From IMG/VR virus record IMGVR_UViG_3300037205_000008, positions 1 to 41,127 of that record: a DNA stretch of 41,127 bases; one strand, written 5' to 3'. Positions 3,584 to 41,127 of the stretch are shown piece by piece (positions within the stretch are counted from its first letter, which is position 1; each line of letters begins with the position of its first letter). Source of the stretch: a virus. The position numbers and the translations under genes are program-made. The notes under the pieces were generated by a model, which did not search any database, had not been told where the DNA came from, and saw nothing but the letters and a program-made list of their open reading frames with translations.

Positions 3584-3612
3584 TTGACTACAGGCGAATA
3601 GTAGCGCAGAAT
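3584..3612 (+). promoter_or_regulatory. Rightward promoter for the HTH gene
   Basis: TTGACT (3584-3589), 17 bp, then CAGAAT (3607-3612). It overlaps the leftward promoter, so occupancy of one should exclude the other. A repressor binding here would control both directions, as in classical phage switches. Confidence 0.5.
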
Positions 3613-3625
3613 TACGCCGTGTCAA
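3598..3625 (-). promoter_or_regulatory. Leftward early promoter
   Basis: On the minus strand, TTGACA (3625-3620, a perfect -35) is followed after 16 bp by TACTAT (3603-3598, 4 of 6). It fires toward the gene at 3544. It overlaps a rightward promoter on the opposite strand, and the -10 region carries an imperfect inverted repeat beginning and ending GGCG/CGCC that could be an operator. Confidence 0.75.
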
Positions 3626-3654
3626 GCACCTTTTCAATCTTTTTGGGAGATTTT

Positions 3655-3861
3655 ATGGATCCGGTACTGCAATCCGTGCAGAAGCTGGCGCAGGCTCAAC
3701 CGGAATCGGACGCGGACCTGGCGCTGCTGGCCGGGGTGACGCGGCAGACCATCTGGCAACTTCGCAAGGGGCTGCTCAACGACAATATGCGGTTCGTGAC
3801 GGTCAAGCGCATTGCGGAGGCTTGCGGGCGCCGATTGATTTTGACCGCAGGGAAACAGTAG
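3655..3861 (+). CDS. Small helix-turn-helix regulator (68 aa)
   Basis: The protein contains an XRE-like helix-turn-helix at residues about 20-45 (DLALLAGVTRQTIWQLRKG) and then a helix with RFVTVKRIAEACGRRL. At 68 residues it has the size of Cro or a plasmid-type antitoxin/repressor and lacks a separate dimerisation domain. The ATG at 3655 follows GGGAGA at good spacing. It is transcribed rightward from a promoter that overlaps the leftward early promoter, so autoregulation and control of the leftward operon is the simplest inference. No partner toxin gene is visible beside it. Confidence 0.8.
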   Translation: MDPVLQSVQKLAQAQPESDADLALLAGVTRQTIWQLRKGLLNDNMRFVTVKRIAEACGRRLILTAGKQ

Positions 3862-3871
3862 AGGGTCTACC

Positions 3872-3897
3872 CTACCGCCGCTCCGGTAGCCATTTTT
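3872..3897 (+). terminator. Short intrinsic terminator after the HTH gene
   Basis: CTACCG (3872-3877) pairs with CGGTAG (3884-3889) across a 6-base loop and is followed by CCATTTTT. The stem is short, so efficiency may be modest, but its place 10 bases past the stop codon fits. Confidence 0.5.
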
Positions 3898-3982
3898 ACA
3901 TTCCAAATCAGCAACCTGCAGCGTCCCGCTACACAATACGGCGCCATTTTTCGGCCGTCTGTGCGTTGTCGCGCATAGGGGG

Positions 3983-4010
3983 TTGCAATTTGCGCTATGA
4001 CTTTTATACT
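3983..4010 (+). promoter_or_regulatory. Strong rightward promoter of the leader
   Basis: TTGCAA (3983-3988, 5 of 6), 16 bp, then TATACT (4005-4010, 5 of 6). Predicted start near 4017. The 3898-3982 stretch before it shows no gene. It drives the leader with the small ORF 4056..4160 and the terminator at 4159-4196. Confidence 0.75.
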
Positions 4011-5363: not shown

Positions 5364-5591
5364 ATGACCAATTGCCCGCTATGCGACCGCGCACGCCGAG
5401 AAGTCGTCGGCGAGTATCAATCGACGCGTCGTTGCTGCCGGCTGAGGTATCTGCTACTTCCGTGGCACAGCAAAGACTACCGGCGAGCGACGCTCGAACG
5501 CTGGTCGGTACAGCACGGACCGGACGAGGCGGAGGCAACGCGCGCCGACGTGGTGGCGGCGTGGAATGAGCGCGTACTACAACGAGCATGA
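5364..5591 (+). CDS. Small Cys-containing protein (75 aa)
   Basis: The N-terminus has CPLC followed by a CC pair about 17 residues later, a possible zinc knuckle. The rest is Arg/Trp-rich and ends with a helix ([14 protein letters not shown]) of the kind seen in small phage proteins with an AWN.R motif. The ATG at 5364 directly follows the preceding stop. The end overlaps the methyltransferase start by 26 bases. Family not named with confidence. Confidence 0.6.
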   Translation: MTNCPLCDRARREVVGEYQSTRRCCRLRYLLLPWHSKDYRRATLERWSVQHGPDEAEATRADVVAAWNERVLQRA

Positions 5592-6780
5592 GCCGTTTGC
5601 GGCGCAGTGGCTGCGGAACCTGATTGCGGCGGGGCACATTGCCGCTGGGGATGTGGATGAGCGAAGCATTGTTGATGTTCGACCCGACGACTTGCGCGGA
5701 TACACCCAATGCCACTTCTTCGCCGGCATCGGCGGATGGAGCCTCGCCCTGCGACTTGCAGGCTGGCCCGATGACCGACCTGTTTGGACAGGCTCTTGCC
5801 CCTGCCAGCCATTCAGCCAGGCCGGCGCCCAGCGTGGCGGCGCAGATGAGCGACACCTATGGCCTGCGTTGTTCCGGCTCATCGGCGAGTGCCGCCCTGG
5901 CGTCATCTTTGGCGAGCAAGTTGCCGGAGCTTCTGGCCTCGCGTGGCTCGACCATGTTTGCGCTGACCTGGAAGGCGCAGGTTACGCCGCAGCGGCGGCG
6001 AATCTGTGCGCTGCTGGCGCGGGCGCACCGCACATCAGACAACGACTGTATTGGGTGGCCGACACCGGTGGCCAACGACAGCAAGGGCTCGGATTACAGC
6101 TACAACCAGGGCAACCACGACTCGATCACGTTGAAGCTCGGCGGCGCGGCGAAGGCGTGTTGGGGCACACCGCTAGCCCAACACGCGAACGGCACGCCGG
6201 AGGCGTTCTTGGAGCGCAAGCGGCGCTCGTTGCGCAACGGCAGTCAATCGATGGGCGTGTGCCTATCGGATCTGAATATGCAGGCGCAAGCGTACTTGGG
6301 GACGCGGCCGACACTGATGGCCGGAACGCCAGCGCAGAAGGGCTACAACGAAGCGGGCAACACGGACAGCAGCCGCAAGACGGTGGCGCTGCTCGCCGCA
6401 TGGCCGACGCCGAAAACATCCGACGCGGACAAAGGTGTGCGGACGATGCGCGGGGCGCTCAACGAGTTGAACCGGAAGGGTCCGGGCAGCGATCTGCCGA
6501 CGATCGCGGCTGCCGCATGGGCGACGCCAACTGCGCGGGACTGGCGCTCGACGCAGAGCAACCAGCACGGCAAGAACGCGCGCCCCTTGAGCGAGAAGGC
6601 TGGGCTGATCTCGAATGGCTCCCCTGCCGAGATGGAAAAGCCCGGCCAACTGAACCCGGCCTTTTCCCGCTGGCTCATGGGATTCCCAATCGCTTGGGAC
6701 GACTGCGCGCCTACGGCAACGCGATCGTCCCGCAAGTCGCCGCGGCTTTTATCGAAGCCGTGATGCAATGCAACGAATGA
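5566..6780 (+). CDS. dcm: DNA (cytosine-5)-methyltransferase (404 aa)
   Basis: The enzyme transfers a methyl group from SAM to C5 of cytosine. Motif I ([10 protein letters not shown]) lies at about 51-60, motif IV with catalytic Cys80 in [12 protein letters not shown], a motif VI-like FGEQVAG near 115-121, motif [13 protein letters not shown] near 158-166, and motif [14 protein letters not shown] near the C-terminus. Between VIII and X the target-recognition region (about 170-350) is unusual: low-complexity, Gly/Gln/Arg/Asp-rich, with recurring ADT, ADA or GDA units. That region is read in a second frame by gene 5651..6763. No cognate restriction enzyme is adjacent, so an orphan, self-protecting methylase is likely. 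Confidence 0.9.
5651..6763 (+). CDS. Overlapping +1-frame protein with WPTP repeats (about 370 aa)
   Basis: This frame stays open for over 1.1 kb entirely within the methyltransferase gene and encodes a protein I recognise by pattern from other phages: a Ser/Ala/Pro N-terminus ([14 protein letters not shown]), then GSSASAAL, a [15 protein letters not shown] block, repeated W(P/G/A)TP...D units ([33 protein letters not shown]) and an ending [15 protein letters not shown]. Such proteins are often annotated as methylase-associated or hypothetical. Start choice is uncertain: ATG 5651 follows GGGG; ATG 5675 is an alternative. Function unknown. Both frames look constrained, so this appears to be a true overlapping gene. 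Confidence 0.65.
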
Positions 6781-7154: not shown

Positions 7155-7331
7155 GTGCGTGTTCCTCACGATCCGATTCTTGTGCCAGTAGGCCATCGAT
7201 GGGTCTGCATCGACCGTCTGAGTCCGCTGCCGATCCTGGCGGTAGGCAACAGCATGACCGAGGCGTATCGGCGCTGGCGGACCGCCGCAGCCCAGAGAGA
7301 CAGACTCGACGCAATGCGGTGGACGCAATAA
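7155..7331 (+). CDS. Small hypothetical protein (58 aa)
   Basis: GTG 7155 opens an ORF with good protein character: VPHDPILVPVGHRW, then LSPLPILAVGN, then MTEAYRRWRTAAAQRDRLDAM, a likely beta-hairpin plus helix. It fills the space between the nuclease and the winged-helix gene and overlaps the latter by 13 bases. The ribosome-binding site is weak. No family recognised. Confidence 0.5.
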   Translation: MRVPHDPILVPVGHRWVCIDRLSPLPILAVGNSMTEAYRRWRTAAAQRDRLDAMRWTQ

Positions 7332-7537
7332 CCGGGTTCGACGTTGCCTTGATCGCCGCCATTGAGGCCGAAGGCGCCGAGGTCCGCTTGATCGTTGCGA
7401 GGCTCCGTAAGCGTGGAGTTCGGCCCTTGGGCTGCCGCAGCCTAATCGAGACACTTGCGGACCGACTTCAAGTCTTGCGAAACGCGGGACATATCGAATA
7501 CGCCGCCGGCCGGTGGCGCCTAACGGAGGCCGCATGA
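7319..7537 (+). CDS. Winged-helix-like DNA-binding protein (about 72 aa)
   Basis: The protein VDAITGFDVALIAAIE... has two helices, then VRPLGCRSLIETLADRLQVL as a candidate recognition helix and GHIEYAAGRWRLT as a wing, typical of a compact winged helix. The reading frame is open further upstream to 7121, but that part would overlap two other genes and is Arg/Ser-rich, so an internal start is preferred; GTG 7319 is the best candidate. It is the last regulatory-looking gene before the conserved late promoter element at 7910, so it is a candidate activator, by position only. Confidence 0.5.
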   Translation: MDAITGFDVALIAAIEAEGAEVRLIVARLRKRGVRPLGCRSLIETLADRLQVLRNAGHIEYAAGRWRLTEAA

Positions 7538-7908
7538 AGGTCATCATCGCTCTTTGCGTTACCACGCTATCCGCGTGCGCCCAAGTTCCAACAATCGCCC
7601 CCAGGGCCGCTGCAACGCCCCAGGCGACCTATGCCGCGTGGTCGGACGACCAGAAGTCGGCAGACGCTGCCCGCCATGTCCCTGTGGCAACTGCAACGGC
7701 TGACAAGGCCGCGATCATGCTTTTTGGGGACGCTTTCGAGTGCGCCAAGGGCAAGCGTGCCATTGCGATCTTCCGGGATTCGCATACCGCGTACCTCGCG
7801 TGCTGGTCGAGTCGTCCTGACGGCAAGATCGCCCTCGACTATGAGGATGGCGATCATCTGGTTATTGACGTGGACGAGGCCGATGCGCCAACCAAGGGCA
7901 GTCTGTGA
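7534..7908 (+). CDS. Predicted lipoprotein (124 aa)
   Basis: The N-terminus MKVIIALCVTTLSAC has a short signal peptide with lipobox LSAC, so Cys15 is the likely lipidated residue. The mature part is a small alpha/beta domain with a Cys pair (FECAKG and LACWSS) and an acidic C-terminus (DYEDGDHLVIDVDEADA). A phage-encoded envelope lipoprotein made before the late genes may act in superinfection exclusion, but this is inference. The start overlaps the preceding stop (ATGA). Its end lies at the first late promoter. Confidence 0.7.
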   Translation: MKVIIALCVTTLSACAQVPTIAPRAAATPQATYAAWSDDQKSADAARHVPVATATADKAAIMLFGDAFECAKGKRAIAIFRDSHTAYLACWSSRPDGKIALDYEDGDHLVIDVDEADAPTKGSL

Positions 7909-7909
7909 T

Positions 7910-7958
7910 AACTGGTAGCACTCACTAGTCACGCATAGGCGCGAATCACCACTATCAT
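7910..7958 (+). promoter_or_regulatory. Late promoter element, copy 1
   Basis: AACTGGTAGCACTCAC (7910-7925) is followed after 27 bp by TATCAT (7953-7958). The same 16-mer at 26433 is followed after 26 bp by TATAAT. The spacer shares CGCA and GGCGCG. No -35 consensus is present, so the 16-mer, at about -54 to -39, is probably an activator site. This is one of only two sizeable intergenic gaps between rightward genes after 4.4 kb. Confidence 0.65.
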
Positions 7959-7966
7959 TTGCGACC

Positions 7967-8227
7967 ATGCCATCACTCCATAACCCGTGGGCACGGTGGG
8001 CCGAGATTCAGCGGTCCAAAAGGCCGTATCAGATTGCCGAGCAAGCCGAGCGGTTGGGATGTATCCAGCTTCGCTTACATGGGGAATCACTTCTGACGCG
8101 CCCATTCCCTGCCAAGAGAGGTCTAGGGGTCAGGGGCGAGTTGATCGGGGTTTATACGAGTGGAGTGAGGCCGGAGTGGATTGCGGCTGACGTAGAGGCT
8201 TACAGGAGTCAACATGCCGAAGCGTGA
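7967..8227 (+). CDS. Hypothetical protein, first gene of late operon 1 (86 aa)
   Basis: The protein has a basic helical N-terminal half (WARWAEIQRSKRPYQIAEQAERL) and ends ADVEAYRSQHAEA. No family is recognised. The ATG at 7967 is only about 9 bases beyond the predicted -10, so the mRNA would be nearly leaderless and there is no ribosome-binding site. Either translation is leaderless, or the first efficiently translated gene is 8214..8378. Confidence 0.55.
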   Translation: MPSLHNPWARWAEIQRSKRPYQIAEQAERLGCIQLRLHGESLLTRPFPAKRGLGVRGELIGVYTSGVRPEWIAADVEAYRSQHAEA

Positions 8228-8378
8228 AAGTGGCGAGCCTCTATCGAAGTTTATTTCCCGCTTTGTCGGTGACAAGGCGGAAGAGAAGAAGTTTCCGGAT
8301 CGCAAACAACGTCTCGCGGTGGGTTACGCCGAGGCTCGAGAAAGTGCCAAAAAGGAGCGCCGGCATGGCAAATCGTAA
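8214..8378 (+). CDS. Small basic protein (54 aa)
   Basis: ATG 8214 follows AGGAG with 6-base spacing. The product MPKRESGEPLSKFI... is Lys/Arg/Glu-rich and likely helical (AEARESAKKERRHGK). It overlaps genes on both sides by a few bases, as expected in this operon. No family recognised. Its place just ahead of terminase genes is typical for small unknown phage proteins. Confidence 0.6.
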   Translation: MPKRESGEPLSKFISRFVGDKAEEKKFPDRKQRLAVGYAEARESAKKERRHGKS

Positions 8379-8613
8379 AGAAATGACTTCCAACGCCCGC
8401 ATTCGATTCAACCTCGGCGGTGGGCCGGAAGATTCCACGAAGGGGGCTGGGAGTGCGCATCTGTCGGTGCATGGAATGCGTGCGCGGGTCGAGCAGAAGC
8501 TTCCTGGGGCTCACTTTGAGGCCGACGGATTGAGCACCGGCAAGCAGACTGGACCGATTCGCGGGCCTGATGCTTATCAGGGCGAGGTGTTTAAATCCGG
8601 CGAGTCGAACTGA
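8365..8613 (+). CDS. Hypothetical protein (82 aa)
   Basis: The start at 8365 is supported by AAGGAG about 8 bases upstream and by the overlap with the end of the previous gene. The protein contains FNLGGGPEDSTKGAGS and a C-terminal GPDAYQGEVFKSGESN, low in hydrophobic residues and perhaps partly disordered. Family not recognised. Confidence 0.6.
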   Translation: MANRKEMTSNARIRFNLGGGPEDSTKGAGSAHLSVHGMRARVEQKLPGAHFEADGLSTGKQTGPIRGPDAYQGEVFKSGESN

Positions 8614-14372: not shown

Positions 14373-15310
14373 TGGCCGTAGTTACCATCGACAGCACCGA
14401 CACCGAAGCAGTCATTGCCCACGCTCAGGGCGATGCCCCCAAGGCCAAGCCTGCCGAAAAGCCCGAACCGAAGGTCGAAGACGACACGGAAGACGATGAT
14501 GGTCTAACTGCGGAACAGAAGGCCGAGTTATCGGCCAAGATGCTCAAGGCCATCGGTAAAAAGCATCGGCTGATGAAGGATGCCGAGGAATTTGCTGCAT
14601 CCCAATACAACGAACGCCGCCTGGCGGAAGAGCGCGCGGCGAATCTCGAGCGCCAGCTTGCCGAACTGAAAGCCAAGGAAGCCCCGAAGGTAGAGGAAAA
14701 GTCCAAGCCCAAGCGGGACGACTTCAAGGACGATGTTGCCTACGTCGAAGCCCTGACCGACTACAAGGCCGAACAACAGTTCGCCAAGTTCAAGGCTGAA
14801 CAGGCTGCTGAAGCCGCGGAACGCCGTCAACAGGAAATGATCGCGACAGCTTCCGAACGGATAGCCAAGGCGCGGGAACTGGTTCCGGACTTCGATGACC
14901 TGGTAGGTGGGGCGGATATCCAGGTGCCGGGGGTTGTGATGGGCTACATGCAGCGGTCGGAAATGCTGGCCGAGCTGAGCTATCACTTCGCTCAAAACCC
15001 GGACGAACTGGTAGCACTCAGCAAGTTACAGCCTGACGAGCAACTGGTGCGGGTTGGCAAGATCGAAGCTAAACTCGCGCCGTTCGCTAAGCGGACCAAC
15101 GGCGCAACGCCGAGCACTGACGACGACAAGTCGAGCGATGATACGGGAACCCCCCCGAGCAAGGCCCGCACGGCCCCGGTGATTACGCCGCTATCGAGTT
15201 CCGGCGCGGCTCAGGTGAATAAACTTGAAACGGAAATGAATCCGCGAGAGTTAATTCAAGCCTGGGCCAAGACGCACAAGGTAGATTTTTCTCGGCGCAA
15301 GCGTCACTGA
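14372..15310 (+). CDS. Scaffolding protein (312 aa)
   Basis: A highly charged helical protein between portal and coat, the usual scaffold position. The acidic N-terminus (PEPKVEDDTEDDDG) is followed by long Lys/Glu/Ala helices (KAEQQFAKFKAEQAAEAAERR). The C-terminal 20 residues are basic (THKVDFSRRKRH), like the coat-binding tail of P22 gp8. Length equals the 303 of P22 gp8 within a few residues. The 15-mer AACTGGTAGCACTCA of the late promoter element also occurs inside this gene at 15006-15020. Confidence 0.85.
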   Translation: MAVVTIDSTDTEAVIAHAQGDAPKAKPAEKPEPKVEDDTEDDDGLTAEQKAELSAKMLKAIGKKHRLMKDAEEFAASQYNERRLAEERAANLERQLAELKAKEAPKVEEKSKPKRDDFKDDVAYVEALTDYKAEQQFAKFKAEQAAEAAERRQQEMIATASERIAKARELVPDFDDLVGGADIQVPGVVMGYMQRSEMLAELSYHFAQNPDELVALSKLQPDEQLVRVGKIEAKLAPFAKRTNGATPSTDDDKSSDDTGTPPSKARTAPVITPLSSSGAAQVNKLETEMNPRELIQAWAKTHKVDFSRRKRH

Positions 15311-26059: not shown

Positions 26060-26434
26060 ATGGCATCGAACAAGATTTTGCGGTTTGGCCCGGTCGCACT
26101 GTCTGCGACCTTGACAACGAACATTCTGAACCCGCCGACTTTGAGCGGGGGAACGGGGCTTGCGGGAACGAACTCCAGCACTTACCTGGTCATTCGGCAT
26201 ATTCGGATCGTCAACAAGACCGGCTCTGCCGCGACAGCCTCTCTATGGCTTGGGGCAACAGGCGCAAATACCGCAGGGACAGAAGTCATCGCTCAAGGAT
26301 TGAGTGTCGCGGCGAACAGTTACGTCGATTGGTATGGGCTGCTTCGGATGGATACGGCCGATTATCTCGTTGGCGGGGCAGGAACTGCTTCGGCACTGAC
26401 CATTCAGGGCGAAGCGGAGATCGGCATTGTGTAA
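26060..26434 (+). CDS. Small virion-type beta protein (124 aa)
   Basis: Beta-rich (YLVIRHIRIVNKTGSAATASLWLGATG, split here for length as two strands) with an ending ALTIQGEAEIGIV. I recall similar proteins in phage tail regions, where they are annotated as structural or hypothetical. It is the last gene of late operon 1; its stop lies inside the copy-2 late promoter element. Confidence 0.6.
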   Translation: MASNKILRFGPVALSATLTTNILNPPTLSGGTGLAGTNSSTYLVIRHIRIVNKTGSAATASLWLGATGANTAGTEVIAQGLSVAANSYVDWYGLLRMDTADYLVGGAGTASALTIQGEAEIGIV

Positions 26435-26480
26435 CTGGTAGCACTCACAAGAGTCTGTAACGCAGGCGCGTCGATATAAT
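26433..26480 (+). promoter_or_regulatory. Late promoter element, copy 2
   Basis: AACTGGTAGCACTCAC (26433-26448), 26 bp, then a perfect TATAAT (26475-26480). The element is shared with 7910. No -35 consensus is seen at the expected distance. It precedes the second late operon; the predicted start is near 26487, giving a normal leader to the gene at 26538. The remaining sequence up to 26537 holds only the ribosome-binding site GGTGGAG. Confidence 0.7.
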
Positions 26481-26537: not shown

Positions 26538-27101
26538 ATGACATACCTGACGCAGATTGCCAGTGGCCTGGATTTTTCGCTACTGCGCGCGCAACTGACG
26601 GTCAATCAGCAGCTCTGGAACCAGATCGACTATCGCAAGGTCGGCAGGAACACGCCGCACTCGCAGATGGACGATATCTGGATTCGCTACCGTGATGATG
26701 CTCCCTTCAAGGCTCGCGGGGACTACCACGGGATAGCCGACGGACAGTTCCGCTGCGTGTTTTATCCAGCTTGGCACAAGCTACCCGCGATCCGGCCGAT
26801 CTGCATGGCGCTGATGACGCGGTTCGAGGGAATCGAGCTCGGGACGATGATCCTGTACCGGCTTGCTCCGGGCAAAAGGATTCAGGCCCATACAGACGCA
26901 GGCTGGGCGGTTGATTACTACTCGACCAAGATTCACGTTTGTTTGCAAGGTGGGCCGAAATGCGGCTACCGGGTCATGGACGAACGACAAGCTTTCAATA
27001 CTGGCGATGTGTTCATCTTCGACAATCGCTTCGAGCACGAAATCTGGAACGACAACGATACGGACATGCTGATGCTGGTTCAGTGCATGCATTGCGAATG
27101 A
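26538..27101 (+). CDS. Aspartyl/asparaginyl beta-hydroxylase-like 2OG-Fe(II) oxygenase (187 aa)
   Basis: These enzymes use Fe(II) and 2-oxoglutarate to hydroxylate side chains or lipid acyl groups. Seen here: ILYRLAPGKRIQAHTD with the HxD pair (His118, Asp120), a strand IHVCLQGG, GDVFIFDNRFEHEIWN with the distal His167, in the order of the AspH/LpxO group. ATG 26538 is preceded by GGTGGAG; an upstream in-frame GTG at 26502 is less likely. It is the first gene of late operon 2. The substrate could be a virion protein or a host envelope component. Confidence 0.78.
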   Translation: MTYLTQIASGLDFSLLRAQLTVNQQLWNQIDYRKVGRNTPHSQMDDIWIRYRDDAPFKARGDYHGIADGQFRCVFYPAWHKLPAIRPICMALMTRFEGIELGTMILYRLAPGKRIQAHTDAGWAVDYYSTKIHVCLQGGPKCGYRVMDERQAFNTGDVFIFDNRFEHEIWNDNDTDMLMLVQCMHCE

Positions 27102-33185: not shown

Positions 33186-33191
33186 TTTTTT
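33151..33191 (+). terminator. Candidate intrinsic terminator before the lysis cassette
   Basis: CGGCGG (33151-33156) pairs with CCGCCG (33174-33179). Inside, ACT and GG pair with AGT and CC around a CAAA loop, with one mismatch and one bulge. Six T residues start at 33186, seven bases after the stem. It overlaps the end of the preceding gene. The gap before the T-run makes it imperfect; it may reduce expression of the lysis genes. Confidence 0.4.
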
Positions 33192-33194
33192 ACC

Positions 33195-33389
33195 ATGCGC
33201 CAGAAAACCTGGGACGCATCCGACACGCATGACTGGTGTCAAGGAATCATCTGCCATACCACGATTTTATGGTGGGGCTTCAAGCGGGAGTTTGAACAAT
33301 GGGAAGCACGAAATCCGCTGGCTCCGAACGCGCAAAAGGTCATGGTCTATCGGCAGATGAAAGGGCGGTATGGGATCGACTGGATTTAA
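33195..33389 (+). CDS. Hypothetical protein (64 aa)
   Basis: Trp- and Cys-rich small protein (MRQKTWDASDTHDWCQGIIC, then LWWGFKREFEQW). The ribosome-binding site is poor. The last 90 bases overlap the gene at 33299 in another frame. Not recognised; possibly a lysis accessory because of position. Confidence 0.5.
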   Translation: MRQKTWDASDTHDWCQGIICHTTILWWGFKREFEQWEARNPLAPNAQKVMVYRQMKGRYGIDWI

Positions 33390-38328: not shown

Positions 38329-38574
38329 TCATCCTCGGATGGTTGTCACGTCAACTCGCCCGTGACGAGCTGTGATCGTTTGAACGCCGCCGTGCCGCAA
38401 AAAGCAGAAGTCGGCAATCTCTTCGTGGTAGATGCCTGCGGCCGAACATTGATCGGCGGTCGCCTCGATATCCTCTGCCATCACAAAATGCTCAGACTCG
38501 ATTTGCAGGTCATAGTCGATGGTATGGCCGTTGTTCTTGCACTTGGCGGCGAACCTGATTCGGTAGATGTTCAC
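38329..38574 (-). CDS. Hypothetical protein (81 aa)
   Basis: GTG 38574 overlaps the preceding stop (GTGA). The sequence VNIYRIRFAAKCKNNG, IDYDLQIES, VMAEDIEATADQC and EIADFCF suggests a beta-sheet domain with a helix. A similar small phage protein pattern (Y.I.F...C..N) is familiar but unnamed. It immediately follows the TGT/DpdA-like gene and may be co-expressed with it. Confidence 0.6.
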   Translation of the reverse strand: MNIYRIRFAAKCKNNGHTIDYDLQIESEHFVMAEDIEATADQCSAAGIYHEEIADFCFLRHGGVQTITARHGRVDVTTIRG

Positions 38575-39248
38575 AGCGACAGACTCCCTTGCGTTGCGTG
38601 CTGCTTCCATTTGGCCGGGCACTGGATGCGGTCGATAGTCTCGGCATTGCACTCGGCGCACCCTGTGTTGCGCTTGAAGTTCTGCGCGACGTTCGTGGAA
38701 TCGGCAGACGCGAGCGGCCAGCATTCGCCGACCTGTCCGAGCATTCGGAGGCCGTGCACCCACGGCAGACGACGATGGCGCTTCTCTAGCGCGTTGAAAG
38801 CCTCATCCATCCGCGCGCACCACGCATCCCCGCCCACGTCCCAATACCTCGCCGTAGAACCGAAGCAAATGCGCGGCCAAGCGTCGGCCAGCTCAAGCAG
38901 ATAGTCCAGCGATAGGCCAAGGTGCCATACGGGCGCCCCAAACGTCCCGTGCGGCCACCGAGCAACCATGTCGCGCTGTTGCTCCACGGTGCCGTCTATC
39001 ACGTCAGGGATGATGGCCCAATGCGGGTGCTCCAGTACCGGATCGAGCCATGCCAGATAGCCCTTTTCGTTGAACGGCTCGCCGCGAGTGAACGCACTGA
39101 ACGCGCCGTTATCGAACATCACGGATTGGCCGATCTGGACGCAGCACGCAAGGTCATCCGGCCGCGCGAAGCTGACGCAGAAGTGGCGTCCAGCCATGCG
39201 CAGCAACTGCTCGCGCGGCGTGATCGGCGTGCCGTGATAGTGGATCAC
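38571..39248 (-). CDS. TGT/DpdA-like 7-deazaguanine DNA-modification protein (225 aa)
   Basis: Tgt and DpdA exchange guanine for a 7-deazaguanine in tRNA or DNA, using two Asp residues. Here SVMFDNGAFSAF (Asp about 46) stands where Tgt has TDSGGFQ, and SADSTNVAQN near residues 183-192 could supply the second Asp. PDVIDGTVEQQRD and ICFGSTARY fit TIM-barrel strands. The protein is far shorter than Tgt (about 375 aa). A C-terminal CAEC...C group may bind zinc. No preQ0 synthesis genes (folE, queD, queE, queC) are present, so the base would come from the host. The GTG at 39248 is chosen for its GTGA overlap; ATG 39266 is an alternative. Confidence 0.6.
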   Translation of the reverse strand: MIHYHGTPITPREQLLRMAGRHFCVSFARPDDLACCVQIGQSVMFDNGAFSAFTRGEPFNEKGYLAWLDPVLEHPHWAIIPDVIDGTVEQQRDMVARWPHGTFGAPVWHLGLSLDYLLELADAWPRICFGSTARYWDVGGDAWCARMDEAFNALEKRHRRLPWVHGLRMLGQVGECWPLASADSTNVAQNFKRNTGCAECNAETIDRIQCPAKWKQHATQGSLSL

Positions 39249-39427
39249 TTGATTGCCCCATTCCATCGTTTCTGCGGTCCCGACAATTGCCGGCGCCGGT
39301 TCTCTGCGGCTTGCTTTGCGGCTTCACGCTCGCGTAGTCCACGCTCGATCTGCAAAGACGTACGCTGGCGTGCGGTATCGACTGCGCTGCGCCAGATGGC
39401 GGCGCGTTCAGAAGGGGATTCGGTCAT
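39245..39427 (-). CDS. Small basic helical protein (60 aa)
   Basis: Helical and strongly basic (TARQRTSLQIERGLREREAAK) with tail QKRWNGAIK. The start at 39427 overlaps the end of the SSB-like gene by 20 bases; a GTG at 39436 is an alternative. It sits between the recombination module and the TGT/DpdA-like gene. Function unknown. Confidence 0.55.
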   Translation of the reverse strand: MTESPSERAAIWRSAVDTARQRTSLQIERGLREREAAKQAAENRRRQLSGPQKRWNGAIK

Positions 39428-40824: not shown

Positions 40825-41039
40825 CAGTACCTCCTTTGTCCAGGCGCGCGGCCGCATGCCCACGCCTCACCATGACTGCTACGCACAACTACCAAAACGC
40901 CGCCGCACCGCTCCACTGCTCGCGCGTTGTCGACCGCAGCCTCGAGCCGCGCATCCCGCAGCGATTGCGCGTACTCGCAGACGACTACAAATGCGACCGC
41001 TAGGCCGACCAGGGCGCCGATGTAGCGGGCGTGGGTCAT
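40824..41039 (-). CDS. Small membrane protein (71 aa), complete copy
   Basis: N-terminal hydrophobic segment (GALVGLAVAFVVVCEYA, about residues 8-24) followed by a basic-acidic helix (QSLRDARLEAAVDNARAVER) and a Gly/Val/Cys-containing end. The stop overlaps the erf start (TGATG), so it is directly upstream of the recombination genes. The start codon lies in the terminal redundancy. Single-pass topology with a periplasmic tail is likely; function unknown. Confidence 0.7.
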   Translation of the reverse strand: MTHARYIGALVGLAVAFVVVCEYAQSLRDARLEAAVDNARAVERCGGVLVVVRSSHGEAWACGRAPGQRRY

Positions 41040-41127
41040 CCGAACCTGCTATTGCGGGCGATCATGTCGTCGCGGAGATCGTTTAGCTCTTTCTCGCGGG
41101 CCTTTAGCGCCCCTTCAAGCCGCAGAA
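40980..41127. repeat. Terminal redundancy, right copy
   Basis: Identical to 1-148 except base 41001 (T against C at 22). See the left copy. Confidence 0.95.
41036..41127 (-). CDS. C-terminal part of the coiled-coil protein (second copy of 57..148)
   Basis: The last 30 codons of the gene complete at 57..428, repeated because of the terminal redundancy. The window ends inside the gene. Confidence 0.8.
   Translation of the reverse strand, partial: LRLEGALKAREKELNDLRDDMIARNSRFG

Follow-up and report, generated by a model that had tools for sequence, protein, structure and literature searches.

The window analysed here, the whole stretch of 41,127 nt, is an IMG/VR virus record of an uncultured virus of bacteria. 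Because a 148-bp direct repeat (99%) lies at its two ends (1-148 and 40980-41127), the genome is probably complete and circularly assembled at ~41 kb. Genes run leftward from ~3.5 kb and rightward from ~3.6 kb, and the families found in the genome include portal, scaffold, major head, head-closure and DNA-ejection proteins; the longest open reading frames (ORFs) encode the portal protein, the head-closure protein and a 711-aa protein of the ejection-gene block. Two long ORFs on the + strand, 5566-6780 and 5624-6763, overlap by ~1.1 kb in different frames, and both resemble families of phage DNA methyltransferases (PHROG 363, E 4e-85; PHROG 1008, E 4e-35). They appear to be a true pair of long overlapping genes. 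On the − strand, the long ORFs 860-1438 and 1805-2626 consist of short units repeated in tandem (pentapeptide-like and Ala/Tyr/Asp-rich), with a 15-bp periodicity in the DNA, and the early-strand gene at 38571-39266 resembles PHROG 887, annotated as phage queuine tRNA-ribosyltransferase. The divergent early region (3584-4010) carries ordinary −35/−10 promoters, leftward TTGACA-16-TACTAT and rightward TTGACT-17-CAGAAT and TTGCAA-16-TATACT.

An earlier note on this DNA had described an identical 16-bp element at 7910-7925 and 26433-26448, followed after 26-27 bp by the −10 hexamers TATCAT and TATAAT and lacking a −35. We found all of this to hold at both sites, the true identity being 17 bp: the exact repeat TAACTGGTAGCACTCAC occupies 7909-7925 and 26432-26448 on the + strand. 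The first copy lies 27 bp from TATCAT (7953-7958) and the second 26 bp from TATAAT (26475-26480). With the predicted starts placed seven bases past the −10, the usual distance, at ~7965 and ~26487, the two copies cover about −56 to −40 and −55 to −39, respectively. Neither site has a TTGnnn at a spacing of 15-19 bp from the −10 or a TGn extended −10. Since ordinary −35/−10 promoters occur in the early region, the −35-less design represents a distinct class within the phage. A third-order Markov model of 31.8 kb of the genome predicts 0.095 same-strand repeats of 17 bp (P about 0.08). The length of the repeat alone is merely suggestive; its position is decisive. The genome is GC-rich and −10 hexamers are rare: neither strand has a perfect TATAAT other than the one at 26475, and the + strand of the whole genome contains only eight TA---T hexamers that match at 5/6 positions or better, which makes a matched spacing between element and −10 very unlikely by chance. 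The probability that two random intergenic positions carry a −10 at a matched offset (within 1 bp) is ~4e-5, and for any two positions it is 2.5e-6. No other pair of gaps in the genome shares an element at 15/17 or better together with matched −10s. This shows that the pairing is not accidental.

The composite of element and −10 is a real feature, almost certainly with a regulatory role, and both sites are likely to be promoters. A shared upstream site in place of the −35 is supported as the simplest explanation for the matched sites, and what marks the general activator-dependent kind of promoter, a −10, no −35 and a shared element at fixed spacing, is all present here. According to the mechanism that we propose, a host σ70-type RNA polymerase would read both sites via the −10 hexamer with no −35 contact, and a sequence-specific activator, most likely encoded by the phage, would recruit or activate the polymerase by binding to the 17-bp element (about −56 to −40), replacing the −35 contact. 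This would switch on the capsid/packaging block (from 7965) together with the hydroxylase/ejection block (from 26487) once the activator is made. What we infer is that both promoters are active, that an activator exists and when the blocks come on, and we regard two such activator-dependent late promoters with a joint late switch-on as somewhat more probable than even. The 17-mer has no clear dyad symmetry, and this counts against an activator because the sites of dimeric activators usually have a dyad.

The genes next to the two sites leave room for a different regulatory role. The start predicted for promoter 1 lies ~2 nt before the ATG of the ORF 7967-8227 (+), which encodes 86 aa, was not called by a codon-based caller, gives a model with a pLDDT of 41 and has a homologue in L004, a near-identical fragment, only. 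Beginning two bases past the predicted start, this doubtful orphan is either leaderless or not a gene, and a leaderless ORF, if transcription starts at 7965, is a further point against the activator reading. The first gap measures 58 bp only when this ORF is counted as a gene, and the earlier note's statement that the late region has no other sizeable gaps needs correction, since others such as 33186-33298 exist. The next gene, 8214-8378 (+), has homologues in 7 of the 14 related genomes and opens the conserved late block, so site 1 marks the border between non-conserved genes and this block. Both intergenic copies come right after stop codons on the transcribed strand, and the TAA within copy 2 is the stop codon of the gene 26060-26434. 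Past promoter 2, the first gene is an Asp/Asn β-hydroxylase-like accessory gene (26538-27101, +; Pfam PF05118, E 5e-14) placed between tail-fibre-type and ejection genes. Site 2 thus precedes a hydroxylase cassette, whose slot varies from relative to relative and is followed by the conserved ejection genes. The earlier placement of the element at both late operons therefore stands in part: matched promoter-like sites lie at the start of the late block and at an internal block, whereas the second of them precedes an accessory cassette and a third copy (see below) is coding. As both adjoining downstream genes are accessory, the 17-mer could be an operator for a repressor or a host regulator at two accessory, moron-type promoters, whose −10s would need no partner or only a host factor. 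No terminator-like site separates either element from the genes upstream of it, and the conserved blocks could for this reason be transcribed by read-through. Such promoters would nevertheless be expected to be very weak without a −35, an extended −10 or an activator, and a repressor would normally bind over the core promoter instead of at −56 to −40. We consider this explanation unlikely, although it deserves to be taken seriously.

Comparison with other viral contigs shows that the element is private. Many of these contigs encode TerL relatives (56-72% identity), yet none except L004 carries a copy with up to 3 mismatches on the late strand. The earlier note had envisaged a motif search in related phages with one copy per late operon; the 14 related genomes have no equivalent, there being no comparable repeat pair with matched −10s on the + strand and, on the minus strand, solely the tandem repeats of G003. 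A 16-bp intergenic pair in G001 was rejected, because one copy overlaps a gene start and there is no −10 pair. Likewise, no shared element was found downstream of the homologues of 26060-26434, where the DNA is variable, and no similar element upstream of the hydroxylase homologues. L004 is the sole viral contig sharing the composite of element and −10; the 16-mer by itself was found in 12 further viral contigs, once in each. A relaxed form of the composite appeared in 15 other contigs, AT-rich and mostly inside long open frames, and was treated as chance. A search of bacterial genomes produced one relative, in Fangia, with a TerL at 46%, too distant to help. Positions 7723-8516 align with 2036-2829 of L004 over ~790 bp without differences, while the whole aligned region differs by ~2%. 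This identical block suggests recent exchange, which would explain it as well as constraint would, so the identity with L004 is not evidence for selection on the promoter. Several relatives (L015/L032, L016, L026, L047, L057, L045 and L043) instead have a normal σ70 promoter, TTGnnn-N17-TATnnn, at the same place at the start of the late block, ~52-58 bp upstream of the homologue of 8214-8378, where the window has its 17-mer and no −35. Having a promoter ahead of the late block is therefore a family trait, but the −35-less form with the 17-mer is private to the lineage of the window. That the element is unconserved, and that some relatives have a −35 at the corresponding position, weighs against the activator reading.

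The earlier note, which counted two copies, had overlooked a third exact one of 15 bp at 15006-15020 (+), inside the scaffold gene. The homologous codons of the relatives L040, L047 and L057 read CTGGTATCACTC, and the ancestry of the protein thus largely accounts for this copy. Its agreement with the intergenic copies is nevertheless improbable as a chance event, a triple of 15-mers having arisen in 0 of 200 simulations, and the scaffold copy could be either an additional genuine site or the sequence from which the intergenic copies derive. No −10 follows it and it has no evident role, a point against the activator reading. One could argue that fragments of the scaffold gene were copied into the two intergenic sites, or that these sites are recombination junctions at module boundaries, in either case with no regulatory function and with coincidental −10s. 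The shared 15 bp with their ancestral codons, the position of both intergenic copies immediately 3' of stop codons and the mosaic exchange around copy 1 seen in the comparison with L004 would fit this origin. However, similarity is greater between the two intergenic copies (17 bp, 19/20) than between them and the scaffold copy (16/20), and the matched positions of the −10s are very unlikely to be coincidental. We therefore rate this origin as decidedly unlikely.

The activator-dependent reading has precedents. In the late operons of P2, a common activator site for Ogr with the consensus TGT-N12-ACA lies upstream of the −10 of several operons (PMC3931495). Each site in the window also has one shared upstream element before its −10, but TGT-N12-ACA is absent (the closest are TGT-N14/N16-ACA at site 2, with none at site 1) and the genome has no match to the Ogr/Delta zinc-finger protein (PF04606; E. 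coli control positive). At Mu Pm, Mor takes the place of the −35 by binding immediately upstream, a −10 is present and the dyad-symmetric site is centred at −43.5 (PMC4390567), and the Mu late promoters use the activator C (PMC4461284). The window shares with Mor/C control a recognisable −10, no −35 and an upstream site of about 16 bp; it differs in that the 17-mer lacks a dyad and is centred at about −47/−48, and no Mor/C-family protein (PF08765) was detected in the genome, the B. subtilis control being positive. By analogy, the sites in the window may work like promoters of the P2/Mu type without being members of those systems. The kind of system is already known from other phages; the sequence of the 17-mer is new and private. 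Late control by Q as in lambda/P22 differs as well, for the genome has no match to the antiterminator PF06530, the one Q family covered, with positive controls. This also bears on a role of the 17-mer as an RNA element in read-through transcripts (an antitermination, processing or pairing site), for which the stop codons directly preceding both copies on the transcribed strand could speak. With no significant fold (z −0.46 and −1.07), no matched Rfam family and no Q-type antiterminator match, such a role is very improbable. A fragment of a tRNA or attachment site was rejected because there is no tRNA. Least probable of all is a core promoter for a T7-like phage RNA polymerase or an alternative sigma factor: TAnnACTCAC is similar to the T7 promoter core, which is TAATACGACTCACTATAGGG, but diverges exactly where T7-type promoters are fixed, from −4 to +6, and in a genome that looks complete, with the longest ORFs assigned as above, there is no ORF of the size of a single-subunit RNA polymerase without another assignment or position and no sigma70-r4 domain, for which the control was positive. 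The RNA_pol search (PF00940) gave no match in the genome and none in its control.

The identity of the putative activator can be narrowed down only tentatively. The gene 7319-7537 (+), located just before site 1, encodes a 72-aa protein for which the winged-helix fold suggested by the earlier note is supported: a single-sequence model predicts a winged helix with a mean pLDDT of 75.5, and its top Foldseek matches are wHTH structures and regulators, the best at E 0.046. There are no relatives of this gene beyond L004, so the support is limited to fold and location, and to name the protein as the activator is a guess. The want of comparative support for this candidate is another point against the activator reading. 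A 68-aa possible HTH protein (3655-3861, +), with sub-threshold Pfam HTH matches at E 0.03-0.07, is an alternative candidate regulator, and a host factor that binds the element is possible. A bolder version of the activator-dependent reading, which we hold to be a rather unlikely one, is that the orphan winged-helix protein would found a new family of late activators, acting on an asymmetric 17-bp site (−56 to −40), taking over, in the lineage of the window, from the −35-dependent late promoter of its relatives and also binding the site in the scaffold gene. We found no description in the literature of late control in the large group of uncultured phages with P22-like head genes to which the window relates, and two activator-dependent late promoters, if true, would offer a testable late-gene switch for that group. 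They would also identify a lineage whose late promoter went from −35-dependent to element-dependent, so that the origin of a phage activator could become approachable by comparing close relatives.
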